33,621 bases of DNA from Opitutus sp. GAS368 (lineage in GTDB: Bacteria; Verrucomicrobiota; Verrucomicrobiia; Opitutales; Opitutaceae): assembly GCA_945874455.1 (NCBI GenBank), contig CAMCHO010000030.1:1-33621 (forward strand), read 5' to 3'. Under the pieces are notes generated by a model, which saw nothing but the letters and a program-made list of their open reading frames with translations, was not told the origin of the DNA and did not search any database. Both the position numbers and the translations under genes were made by a program. Numbering within the stretch: position 1 is the stretch's first letter; each line of letters begins with the position of its first letter. Below are positions 11,869 through 16,598 of the stretch, piece after piece.

Positions 11869-14502
11869 ATGCCCACCGCACCAAAGAAAAATTCCACCGC
11901 GAAAGCCCAGCCAGCGACCGAAGCAAAACCGGCCAAGGCCGTCCGATCCGTGGCACCGCAGCGCCCGTCCGCTCGGCGCGCGGCCGCGTCCCTCGCCAGC
12001 ACCGCGCCCTTTCCGGCCGCGGACCTCATTCAAGCGATTCGTAACCAGCCCGCTTCAGCGGACAAGCCGACCGATGCTTTTCGTTCACTGATTCAGCGCC
12101 ATCTGGTTTCTACGCTCGCGCGCCATCCGGCTTCCGCCACGTCGCGCGACTGGTGGGTCGCCACCGCCCTCGCGGTGCGCGATACGATCCATGAGCGGAT
12201 GATTGCCACGCAGGCCGTGCACAACGCCCACAACGTCCGCCGGATTTACTATTTCTCCCTCGAGTATCTCATGGGACGTCTCTTCGGCAATAATCTCATC
12301 GCCACCGGGCTGCTCGACACCGCCAAGGAGGCCCTCGAGTCGCTCGGGCAGGACTTCGAGAAAATCCGCGAATCCGAGGTCGACATGGGCCTCGGTAATG
12401 GCGGCCTCGGTCGCCTCGCCGCGTGCTTCCTCGATTCCCTCGCGACGCTTGACTACCCGGCGCTCGGCTACGGCATCTACTACGAGTTTGGGCTCTTCAA
12501 GCAGGCCTTCAACAACGGCCACCAGATCGAGCATCCTGATAATTGGATTATTTTCGGCAGCCCATGGGAGGTGGTGCGTCCTGAATACACCCAAGAGGTG
12601 CGCGTTTTTGGACGCGTCGAAAATGTGTTCGATGATCGCGGCAACTACCGTCCACGTTGGGTGGATACCAAGACGATTTTGGGTGTGCCCCACGATATTC
12701 CGATCGCCGGCTTCGGTACCCAGACGGTCAACCTCCTGCGTTTGTGGGCCTCGAAATCCACGGAAGACTTCGATCTGGCGGCGTTCAACAGCGGCGGCTA
12801 CGTCGAGGCCGTGCGGGAAAAAGCCGTGGGCGAGACCGTCTCAAAAGTTCTCTACCCGAACGACAAGACCGAAAACGGCAAAGAGCTGCGCCTCGTGCAG
12901 CAGTATTTTTTTGTCGCCTGTTCCCTGCGTGATCTCATCCGGCGGCATTTCCGGTCGCCGGGCAACTCGTGGGCAAATTTCTCCGACAAAGTCGCCGTCC
13001 AGCTCAACGACACGCACCCCGCCATCGCTATCATCGAGCTCATGCGCCTGCTCATCGACGAGGAGCAGATGTCGTGGGATGCCGCTTGGGCGATTGTCTC
13101 GAAAACCTTCTCCTACACCAATCACACCTTGTTGCCAGAGGCTCTGGAGAAGTGGGGCGTCGCTCTGTTTGAACGCGTGCTGCCGCGCCATCTCCAGCTC
13201 ATTTTCGACGTCAACACGCACCTGATGGTCACCGTCGAAGCCAAGTGGCCGGGCGACAACGAAAAGAAGCGCATCTGCTCCCTCATCGAGGAGCACGGTC
13301 ACAAGCGGGTCCGCATGGCGAATCTCTCCGTGGTCGGTTCGCACACCGTCAACGGCGTCGCTGCACTCCACACCGCGCTCCTGAAGAAGGATCTCTTCCC
13401 TGAGTTCGACGCGCTCTATCCGGGTAAATTTCAGAACAAAACCAATGGCATCACGCCGCGACGCTGGCTGTTTAAGAGCAACCCCGGATTGTCGAAACTG
13501 ATTACGCGGCAGCTCGGCAGCGAGGCCTGGGTCCGCGATCTCGATCTGCTCCGTGGGCTGGAAAAGTTCTCCGACGACCCGGGGGTTCAGCGTGAGTTCA
13601 TGGCTATCAAACGCGCCAACAAGGTTGAGCTCGCCGCGACGATTAAGGATCTGTGTGGCGTCGTGGTTTCCCCGGATGCGCTGTTCGACGTGCAGATCAA
13701 ACGGCTCCACGAATACAAGCGGCAGCATCTCAATCTGCTGCACATTCTCGCACTCTACCGGCGGATCTTGCAGAATCCGGCCATCGATTTGGTGCCGCGC
13801 GTCTTCATCTTCGGAGCGAAGGCCGCGCCGGGTTACGACCTCGCGAAGAACATCATCCGTGCGATCAATGTCATTGGCGCCCGCATCAACGCCGACGAAC
13901 GCATCGGGGGGAAACTCAAAGTGGTCTTCCTCCCGAATTATCGGGTTTCGCTCGCGGAAAAAATCATCCCGGCCGCCGATCTTTCGGAGCAGATTTCCAC
14001 CGCCGGCAAAGAGGCGTCCGGCACCGGTAACATGAAGCTCATGGCGAACGGCGCGCTGACCATCGGCACACTCGACGGTGCCAACGTCGAGATCGGCGAA
14101 GAAGTGGGCGCCGACAATATCTTCATCTTCGGCCTCACCGTCGACGAGGTGGAGGCGCTCTGGGCCAAGGGCTACCAACCGTGGGACTATTACCACGCCG
14201 ATGAGGAGCTTCGCGCGGTGATTGATTGGCTGGGCAGCGACTATTTCACCCCGGGCGAACAGGGGGCCTTTGGTCACGTCCACGCGAGTCTGTTGCAGGG
14301 TGGCGATCCCTACCTGCTCCTCGCGGATTTCCGTTCCTATTCCGACGCGCAGGCCCGGGCTGATGCCGCTTATCGCGACCAGACCAAGTGGGCGAAGATG
14401 GCCATCCTCAATACGGCGCGCGTCGGCAAGTTCTCCAGCGATCGCACGATCCGGGAATACGCGCAGCAGATTTGGAATCTGGCGCCGGTGCCGGTGCGCT
14501 AA
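11869..14502 (+). CDS. glgP: Glycogen/starch phosphorylase
   Basis: 877 residues. It releases glucose-1-phosphate from alpha-1,4-glucans using phosphate and PLP (GT35 family). Key stretches are [57 protein letters not shown] and the PLP site [14 protein letters not shown], whose lysine is about residue 723 and would form the Schiff base. The family is usually about 820 residues. The extra length is an Ala/Lys/Pro-rich N-terminal tail of roughly 50 residues, likely disordered. The start follows a run of pyrimidines (TTTCTCTCTCTC), not a Shine-Dalgarno. No other glycogen genes adjoin it. Confidence 0.96.
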
Positions 14503-14717: not shown

Positions 14718-15974
14718 ATGCGTCGCCACGTCCTCTGCCTGCTCGTCTCCTTAGCCTGCGCGGCTGCGGTGGCTGCGGCGGAGTCGGTGCGGCCGATTCC
14801 TCCGCTGACGGCCGATCTTTCCGGCCAGCTCTCGCTGCCCAAAATCCCCGGTCTGCCTCCGCTCGCGTGGCGCGTGCACGCGCGCTCCGCGGCCGGCCAC
14901 AGCCTCGCCTTCGACGCCACGGCGACCGCGCCGGGCTTGGAACTCCGCCTTGAATTTACGCTCCCCGGCGGCGAGTCGCCGGGTACGTGGCGCCTCGTGC
15001 GCGCGAAGTGTGACGCGGCCTGGTGGTGGCGCCTCAGCATTGCGCAGGCCGGAGTGACAACGTTGCCCGCTGATTTCACCTTTGCTGGGCAGCTCACTTT
15101 GGAGGGGGCCGGCCGGTGGCGCGGGTCCGAGGCCACCGGCACGTTGTCTGCCACCCTCGCTGCCGGCACCGCTGGCAGTAAATCCCAACACTGGAGCGCG
15201 AGTGGGCTGGAACTTGCTGCCGACCTCGAGCTCACTCCGACGCGCGTCGCCGTGCGCACCGCGCGCGCCCACGTGGACACGATTCAAGCCGCCGGGCTCA
15301 CGGGGAGAAATCTCATTCTTGAGCTTGCCGGTGCCGAGGCCGGCCGCCTTGCGGTGAGTCGCGCCGAGGTCGCGGCCTTCGGTGGGCGGATTACTCTGGC
15401 GCCCTTTACGCTCGATCCGGTCGCACCGGCGGTGAACAGCGTCCTTGAATTTTCGGGCGTCTCGCTCGGTGACCTCGCCAGCTTCGTGCCCCAAGCGCTC
15501 CAGCAAGCCGGCGGCCAAGTCGCTGGGCGCTTATCGTTGAACTGGAGCCGGCAGGCCGGGCTGGGGCCCGCTAACGGGTCCCTCGCGGCCGCCGCGGGAC
15601 AAGCGGCCACGGTGCGCCTCGCCTCGTCTCCGGGGTTACTCACGGGGAATTCACCTCCGCGCATCGCGCTGCTACCCGCAGCGATGGGACCGCTCAGCCG
15701 CTGGTTCTCCCTCGAAAATCCAGCTCATGGCATGCTCCAGCGCATCGAGCTGGGTCAGGCCCCTCTCGCCGTGGAAAACCTCAGCCTGCGCCTTTATCCG
15801 GATGGGGCGGGTGGCGCGCGTTCCGCTCAGGTCGAGGTCGTCGCCCGCACCACCGGCGCGGGTGATGTGGTCGAAAAAGTCACGTTCACCGTCAACGTCT
15901 CCGGCCCCCTCGATCACGTGCTGCGTCTCGGCCTGGATGACCGCGCGAACATTCGCCTGAACACGGCCAGATGA
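14718..15974 (+). CDS. ydbH: YdbH-like periplasm-spanning lipid-transport protein, short form
   Basis: 418 residues with an N-terminal signal or anchor (MRRHVLCLLVSLACAAAVAAA). The body is repetitive beta-strand sequence of the AsmA/TamB-like type (LAVSRAEVAAFGGRITLAPFTLDP, NSVLEFSGVSLGDLASFV), and the C-terminus resembles YdbH: PLAVENLSLRLYPDG then VEVVARTTG. In Escherichia coli, YdbH joins inner and outer membranes with the lipoprotein YnbE and moves phospholipids between them. The assignment rests mainly on the next two genes being YnbE and YdbL in the same order as in E. coli. E. coli YdbH has about 880 residues, so this copy is half-length. An unrelated AsmA-like protein is the alternative. 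Confidence 0.75.
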   Translation: MRRHVLCLLVSLACAAAVAAAESVRPIPPLTADLSGQLSLPKIPGLPPLAWRVHARSAAGHSLAFDATATAPGLELRLEFTLPGGESPGTWRLVRAKCDAAWWWRLSIAQAGVTTLPADFTFAGQLTLEGAGRWRGSEATGTLSATLAAGTAGSKSQHWSASGLELAADLELTPTRVAVRTARAHVDTIQAAGLTGRNLILELAGAEAGRLAVSRAEVAAFGGRITLAPFTLDPVAPAVNSVLEFSGVSLGDLASFVPQALQQAGGQVAGRLSLNWSRQAGLGPANGSLAAAAGQAATVRLASSPGLLTGNSPPRIALLPAAMGPLSRWFSLENPAHGMLQRIELGQAPLAVENLSLRLYPDGAGGARSAQVEVVARTTGAGDVVEKVTFTVNVSGPLDHVLRLGLDDRANIRLNTAR

Positions 15975-16018
15975 AACCTGAGTTGCCCTTTGCGGTCTCG
16001 TGTGTGCAATCCTCGTCT

Positions 16019-16201
16019 ATGCTCCGCTGCCTCCCGCTTCTCGTGACCGCGCTCGTTCTCGGCGGTTGCATCCACGTCACGATGGACCCGATTCAAGTCC
16101 ACGCGACGATCGACGTGAACGTGAAAGTCGACAAAGCCCTCGACGATCTCTTCGGCGACCTCGACAAGCAGGACGCGTCCATGAAATCCGCTGCGAAATA
16201 A
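16019..16201 (+). CDS. ynbE: YnbE-like outer-membrane lipoprotein
   Basis: 60 residues from the ATG at 16019, almost the same length as E. coli YnbE. It has a lipoprotein signal with the lipobox LGGC (14-17). The mature part (IHVTMDPIQVHATIDVNVKVDKALDDLFGDLD) is a strand pair ending in an acidic tail and carries the conserved MDPI-VHATIDVNVKV pattern of the family. In E. coli it stacks on YdbH as a beta-strand assembly and anchors the bridge in the outer membrane. The frame could begin at 15971, where an ATGA overlaps the ydbH stop, but those 16 extra residues would spoil the lipoprotein signal. Confidence 0.85.
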   Translation: MLRCLPLLVTALVLGGCIHVTMDPIQVHATIDVNVKVDKALDDLFGDLDKQDASMKSAAK

Positions 16202-16223
16202 AAAACCCTCTCCTCCCGCTCGT

Positions 16224-16598
16224 ATGAACACCCAGCTCCGCCTTTTCGTTCTCCTCGGCCTCGCTTTCTTCTCATTGGCCGGCAGCGCCGTAGCCCAGGA
16301 TATCGCCGCGGCGAAACAGCGCATGGCTTCCCGTCAATCCGAAGTCGCTTCGTTGAAAACCAGCGGTGCGGTCGGTGAGAACAACCGCGGCCTCCTCGAA
16401 GTGCGCCGTAGCGGTGGTGCTTCCGCCAAGATCGTCGCCGATGAAAATAGCGACCGCGGCGTGCTCTACGCCGAAGTCGCCAAGCGCACCGGCGTCTCCG
16501 TCGACGACTCCGGCCGCGCGCGCGCGAAGCAAATCGCCGCCAACAGCGCCGCCGGTGTTTGGATTCAAAAAGAAGACGGATCGTGGCACCAAAAGTAG
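16224..16598 (+). CDS. ydbL: YdbL-like periplasmic protein (DUF1318)
   Basis: 124 residues: a signal peptide (to about AVAQD), then a DUF1318 domain with KQRMASRQSEVASLKTSG, VGENNRGLLEVR, ENSDRGVLYAEVAKRTG and a C-terminal WIQKEDGSWHQK. In E. coli YdbL acts with YdbH and YnbE and is thought to help assemble or control the YnbE stack. It starts 22 bases after ynbE, so the three genes form one operon. The order ydbH-ynbE-ydbL is the same as in E. coli. Confidence 0.87.
   Translation: MNTQLRLFVLLGLAFFSLAGSAVAQDIAAAKQRMASRQSEVASLKTSGAVGENNRGLLEVRRSGGASAKIVADENSDRGVLYAEVAKRTGVSVDDSGRARAKQIAANSAAGVWIQKEDGSWHQK

Follow-up and report, generated by a model that had tools for sequence, protein, structure and literature searches.

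How a YdbH protein of half the usual length could take part in a lipid bridge between the inner and the outer membrane is the question raised by a three-gene locus of Opitutus sp. GAS368. The locus bears on two matters of general interest, namely the route of phospholipids to the outer membrane, and whether a continuous bridge between both membranes is required of AsmA-like proteins. The stretch analysed (the window) comprises 33,621 nucleotides of contig CAMCHO010000030.1, read on the forward strand. In E. coli MG1655 the genes ydbH, ynbE and ydbL encode proteins of 879, 61 and 108 amino acids. The initial annotation had recognized the E. coli gene order in the window and had described the YdbH as half-length, and both statements were borne out: three genes on the forward strand encode, in identical order, a 418 aa YdbH homologue (14718-15974), a 60 aa YnbE-like lipoprotein (16019-16201) and a 124 aa YdbL (16224-16598). 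Upstream lies the glycogen phosphorylase gene glgP (11869-14502, forward strand), which is context outside the system, and a gene for a BMP-type substrate-binding protein starts downstream at about 16694. Because the short ydbH frame can be extended upstream by only 12 more open codons and glgP ends at 14502, there is no space for a missing 5' half of ydbH.

Two features of the gene layout were observed beside this. The glgP gene precedes ydbH in 13 of 20 short-form loci (the nineteen described below and L031, whose N-terminus lies off the contig) and also in some loci of anchored YdbH; it represents an old neighbourhood in the family. At 15971-15974 the ydbH stop codon overlaps an ATG (ATGA) in the ynbE frame, from which an alternative YnbE of 76 aa could start. 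The ynbE start of E. coli likewise overlaps ydbH; the ATGA overlap was present in only some of the 20 relatives inspected. The overlap may be a hint of translational coupling.

The identity of the two smaller proteins was established by profile searches. YdbL, which has a signal-peptide-like start, matched DUF1318 (PF07027) with an E value of 6.7e-20 and 71.9 bits (cut-off 27 bits). The middle protein scored below the family cut-offs (12.5 versus 25.8 bits with PF13617, 16.8 versus 50 bits with NF038104), and is therefore called YnbE-like. A profile of nine such sequences aligned with E. coli YnbE at an hhalign probability of 95% (E 2.4e-8), and the lipobox LGGC (16058-16069, forward strand) could be read in the translation; the protein is a small lipoprotein that resembles E. 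coli YnbE and is encoded between ydbH and ydbL. The genes for YnbE and YdbL were present in all 20 short loci, YnbE being detected by pattern in 19 and by eye in one (G143), and 14 of these 20 stretches had been cut around YdbL in the same 14 genomes that were earlier found with YdbH alone. Compensation for the short YdbH by a longer YnbE monomer was considered and rejected: the median mature length was 46 residues in the short loci versus 49. This comparison relied on a sequence pattern that did not pick up YnbE in one short-form locus and in 26 of the 58 other loci, and some lengths were inflated by an upstream cysteine. In two genomes (L117 and L123; G131 and G210) second DUF1318 genes adjoin a lipoprotein without the usual YnbE motif, and these second pairs are perhaps diverged YnbE and YdbL. 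Two further genomes, both of the same group, carry DUF1318 matches with one internal TGA (G145:C12:5702-5947 and G165:C213:35382-35627).

Relationship of the 418 aa protein to YdbH had to be established through relatives. By itself, it had no match in Pfam or NCBIfam, and the PF11739 (YdbH-like) model found no match in the window's genome. Among seven short proteins scanned singly, two gave PF11739 matches above the cut-off of 26.3 bits. One, which is 61% identical to the window protein, matched at 6.8e-11 (42.2 bits), its residues 108-278 aligning to positions 609-778 of the 893-position model; the other, a more distant short protein, matched at 1.4e-12, with residues 63-312 on profile positions 568-793. 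The model was matched at E ≤ 1 by 5 of 16 short proteins; of 17 long Verrucomicrobiota YdbH proteins, 16 matched it. When the profile of the 16 short proteins was aligned with hhalign to the long Verrucomicrobiota YdbH, an E value of 3e-19 was obtained over columns 533-865 of 887, and with the anchored form of about 495 aa the E value was 2.5e-37 (columns 55-417 against 154-495). Alignment with the single E. coli YdbH sequence was weak (probability 30%, E 5e-4) and covered region 606-864 of 879, the same region as in the long-YdbH alignment. Neither E. coli YdbH nor the short profile found a relative among the PDB sequences at E ≤ 1. The alignments equate the window protein with about the final 40% of YdbH. 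The match to the C-terminal half, as judged by homology and not by a structure model, argues against the unrelated fold that would have contradicted the initial annotation. Homology and neighbours are those of YdbH, the transmembrane helix and the adjoining module appear to be lacking, and the protein is accordingly classified as a YdbH-derived homologue rather than as canonical YdbH.

Variation of YdbH length was studied in Verrucomicrobiota. Matches to DUF1318 (YdbL) at E ≤ 0.01 were obtained in 104 of 288 genomes, and 100 loci were taken from 97 of the 104; the remaining genomes were the window's own, three with below-cut-off matches and three above the cut-off. An iterated profile detected a YdbH frame in 72 of the 100 loci and in six other loci, and 77 proteins were taken further. 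Nineteen of these, made up of the window protein, 14 proteins encoded elsewhere in its family and four from named close relatives, had a signal-peptide-like N-terminus and a median length of 418 aa (289-428 aa). The recurrence of such short frames in 19 loci shows that the window frame is not an assembly artefact. The other 58 proteins, with a median length of 832 aa (335-1120 aa), were treated as anchored; this class holds everything not read as short, including ten proteins with a doubtful or cut N-terminus, which were excluded from the classifier and the AxA counts described below (48 used) and included in the tree and the length median.

Where an anchor is expected, the window protein has a signal-peptide-like segment (residues 1-21, 14718-14780, forward strand) with a probable cut between AVAAA and ES. 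This cut was assigned by visual inspection of the AxA pattern, whereas the first AxA found by the script ends at residue 15. A two-feature classifier trained on the N-termini of 34 YdbL and 48 anchored YdbH proteins (leave-one-out accuracy 82%) assigned 16 of the 19 short N-termini to the signal-peptide class (P(TM) <0.5). The window protein scored 0.36, its near relatives 0.04-0.27, and three short N-termini (L069, L095 and L040) scored as transmembrane-like; the classifier is crude, as it misplaced 11 of 48 anchored and 4 of 34 YdbL controls. A strict AxA motif followed the hydrophobic core in 16 of 19 short but only in 18 of 48 anchored proteins (Fisher p 0.0009), and the median length of the core was 14 residues in the former and 19 in the latter. 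The start codons of the relatives had been chosen by a hydrophobicity score that favours hydrophobic starts in both groups, with that of G099 set by hand. In a wider search of the family 17 loci were opened, three of which repeated relatives already counted, and the N-termini of the 14 new relatives looked signal-peptide-like by eye. Taken as a whole, the short YdbH seems to have no N-terminal inner-membrane helix and to start with a signal peptide-like segment, which for the window protein itself is not certain given its P(TM) of 0.36. In the titles and abstract openings of the papers listed by literature searches no description of an anchorless YdbH was found.

The loss appears to extend beyond the helix. 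Since column 154 of the sister form of about 495 aa aligns with column 55 of the short form, the latter lacks about 120 residues, the helix included. In each of the six E. coli AsmA-like proteins, an anchor of about 22 aa is followed by a chorein-N region of about 120 aa, as described in PMC8593681. The segment absent from the short form fits the place of anchor and chorein-N region, and by its position it may be chorein-like. A search of 7 short-form genomes for a stand-alone copy of the missing N-terminal module was negative. The profile used (150 positions, from six anchored relatives) found both positive controls at E<1e-70, and the sole extra match, in the window's genome, had an E value of 0.078. 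The possibility that the gene was split into two was dismissed on the grounds that these 7 genomes yielded no separate copy of the module.

In the tree of the 77 YdbH C-terminal regions all nineteen short forms fell on one side of a single branch (SH-aLRT 99), and their sister group (support 99) consisted of six anchored forms of about 495 aa from the same family (G075, G122, G155, G169, G181 and G274); a single change of state suffices on this tree, which is a quick one with SH-aLRT supports only and in which the branches beyond the short and medium groups are long. The family also contains longer forms: one genome (G223) encodes an anchored YdbH of 975 aa, and 12 more genomes have weakly scoring open frames of 962-1094 codons. 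Forms of close to 300 aa occur in it as well. Of 150 genomes of the family, 105 were matched by the profile of the 16 short proteins: 66 scored >200 bits, 16 were in the medium range, 13 were long (the weakly scoring frames of 962-1094 codons) and 10 were others, all classes being assigned by profile score and frame length and not from individual N-termini. The homologue length search, which was carried out within Verrucomicrobiota, thus confirmed that the half-length form is real and confined it to Opitutaceae and close relatives. The suggestion that a minimal version of the bridge is the general state outside Proteobacteria was not supported, as the median length of the 58 anchored Verrucomicrobiota proteins is 832 aa. 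Because the short form is limited to one clade and long forms prevail elsewhere, the shortening belongs to this family and not to Verrucomicrobiota or non-Proteobacteria overall.

Some other unusual YdbH frames were encountered. A YdbH of only 289 aa, in which an internal stretch of the groove is absent, is encoded next to intact YnbE and YdbL genes in G018 (L074, 2981-3847), and open frames of 302 and 323 codons in G303:C88 and G387:C129 have the same internal gap. In family f17 (L093 and L105), YdbH proteins of 335-350 aa retain the transmembrane helix, which suggests a separate shortening in this Verrucomicrobiota family. G274 has a second YdbH-like frame of 486 codons (G274:C1:3253751-3254809), which precedes the main frame by about 7 kb.

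The body of the short protein appears to be maintained. Between the window ydbH and six relatives dN/dS was 0.18-0.32, and by this measure of sequence divergence short ydbH is under purifying selection. Among the 11 columns that were invariant in 16 short proteins were N393 and G396, located in a conserved C-terminal end (residues 384-405; 15867-15932, forward strand), which by analogy with E. coli would face YnbE. Hydrophobicity with a period of two residues is expected for a groove with one greasy face. The lag-2 periodicity of the window protein (z 4.3) was close to that of E. coli YdbH (4.7), two controls gave -2.6 and -0.4, and the median over the 16 short proteins was 4.4 (range 1.7 to 6.3). 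AlphaFold models built from six-sequence alignments had a mean pLDDT of 49.6 for the window protein and 35.3 for a relative. The former showed meandering strands, with usable confidence only in about residues 60-210, and with this poor model Foldseek returned no match at E ≤ 0.001. Nine strands of the best-modelled stretch suggested about 17.6 residues per strand, from which the groove can be estimated to be some 110 Angstrom long in the mature short protein and some 230 Angstrom in E. coli YdbH, both being rough figures derived from a weak model.

A search for other AsmA-like genes, which the initial annotation had recommended, yielded two large proteins of 1006 aa (G000:C61) and 1234 aa (G000:C5) in the window's genome, each with a hydrophobic helix near the start as seen by eye; the link of these candidates to AsmA stayed below the Pfam cut-off. 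Neither had a Pfam match at E ≤ 0.1, and a relative in G160 reached 15 bits with AsmA against a cut-off of 29.8, so they were not accepted as full-length AsmA-like proteins. Relatives were found in all 11 genomes searched, independently of the YdbH type. The two proteins are weak candidates for inner-membrane partners. The window's genome also has small DUF748-like frames with a hydrophobic helix, hardly more than one domain in size (L134, 1412-2251; L135, 1278-2240; minus strand). Similar frames occurred in all 14 genomes inspected, which represent several YdbH types, and therefore nothing points to a pairing with the short form. TamB was tried as a compensating factor and discarded. In a look at 14 genomes it was present above the cut-off in 6 of 7 with short and in 0 of 5 with anchored YdbH, and this difference vanished in the set of 150 genomes. 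There, TamB family matches were found in 61 genomes: 31/66 of those scoring as short, 4/16 of the medium, 8/13 of the long and 5/10 of the other class, and 13/45 of those not matched. TamB does not track short YdbH, and the search of the window's own genome yielded no TamB.

Among the ways of spanning the envelope named by the initial annotation (a longer YnbE stack, a thinner periplasm or a partner), a partner appears to be the best option, although only as a candidate. We consider it quite conceivable, if somewhat short of probable, that this YdbH has dispensed with its inner-membrane half and is a secreted half-groove on the outer-membrane side, tethered by YnbE and in need of an inner-membrane partner. 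As judged from the sequences, the anchor helix and the module of about 120 residues would have been replaced once, in an ancestor within Opitutaceae, by a cleavable signal peptide, and the mature protein would be a periplasmic groove. By analogy with E. coli, YdbL would assist YnbE. For the YdbH C-terminus of E. coli an interaction with YnbE resembling beta-strand augmentation has been proposed (PMC12045153), and by the same analogy the C-terminal edge of the short form would pair with YnbE on the outer-membrane side. Speculatively, the groove of about 110 Angstrom, about half of the estimated length of E. coli YdbH, would have an open N-terminal edge, which might receive lipids in trans from an inner-membrane partner, most simply an AsmA-like protein. 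The specific form of this proposal, an AsmA-family bridge in two pieces with the YnbE-held secreted YdbH half docked end to end on an inner-membrane AsmA-like protein, is on the unlikely side. If true, it would add to the AsmA family a protein that lacks its own anchor; according to PMC12045153, all six members in E. coli are anchored to the inner membrane.

It was also considered that the operon encodes a minimal but complete bridge, in which the N-terminal segment remains uncleaved and serves as the anchor, and the distance left is covered by a longer stack of YnbE copies or by a periplasm that is thinner. YnbE is conserved and could multimerise, and the N-terminus of the window protein is less clearly a signal peptide than those of its near relatives, with three other short proteins scoring as transmembrane-like. 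A self-sufficient, envelope-spanning minimal bridge is nevertheless doubtful because the anchor in the inner membrane appears to be missing from the short protein: the hydrophobic core is short, AxA is present in most short proteins, and the module adjacent to the anchor is gone as well. Since in addition the YnbE monomers are not longer, we regard this arrangement as improbable. If YdbH and YnbE formed no continuous bridge, the short protein could be a soluble lipid carrier or a lipid handler that acts together with YnbE only near the outer membrane, with TamB or others responsible for bulk transport. This would agree with the occurrence of TamB in 61 of the 150 genomes and with the persistence of the 289 aa form together with YnbE and YdbL, but TamB neither follows the short form nor was found in the window's genome, and no such carrier is known to us from the family; a role of this type is rather doubtful.

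The occurrence of several YdbH lengths within one family could also be taken as a sign of relaxed constraint, the protein being a relic that moves no lipid and is left only with templating or capping YnbE. The low dN/dS and the preserved groove-like periodicity argue that the protein body is still selected, and make a relic decidedly improbable. Finally, the lack of a direct family match for the window protein would be compatible with an unrelated protein or an assembly artefact; in view of the chain of homology, the conserved operon and the similar short frames in many genomes, this is hardly credible. The secreted half-groove held by YnbE is thus the reading that we prefer. In any case the locus encodes a real, clade-specific half-length homologue of YdbH, which is probably anchorless and has kept its usual neighbours. 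It can be looked upon as a natural truncation experiment, in which the outer half of YdbH was retained with YnbE and YdbL, and the anchor and the adjoining module were dropped. As such, it indicates what portion of YdbH pays to be retained, and raises the question whether a groove can work with a free end or must borrow a partner in the inner membrane.

Of the known systems, the closest is YdbH-YnbE-YdbL of E. coli (PF11739, PF13617 and PF07027), with which the locus shares the gene order, the YnbE-like lipoprotein, the DUF1318 protein YdbL and homology to the C-terminal part of YdbH. It differs in that its YdbH has 418 instead of 879 aa and seems to be without the transmembrane helix and without the chorein-N region that PMC8593681 reports for all six E. 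coli AsmA-like proteins. PA2708 of P. aeruginosa (361 aa, PF05359) is another short AsmA-like protein, which its authors doubt to span the periplasm (PMC10900882). In contrast to the window protein, it has a predicted N-terminal transmembrane helix and belongs to another Pfam family, and YnbE is not named in PMC10900882. GspN of type II secretion, a small beta-taco protein, was reported to be structurally similar to YdbH, but it is placed in the inner membrane and serves the movement of lipoproteins by that secretion system (PMC12802150). Within the family, the anchored YdbH of about 495 aa is the sister in the tree and can be aligned over most of the short protein; it differs by retaining the N-terminal helix, which lies within the segment of about 120 residues absent from the short form. 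In the LptC-LptA-LptD system a beta-groove bridge that carries LPS is assembled from separate pieces, one of which is soluble and periplasmic. The likeness to this system is one of architecture, and despite the different cargo, LPS, it offers a precedent for a bridge made of pieces.
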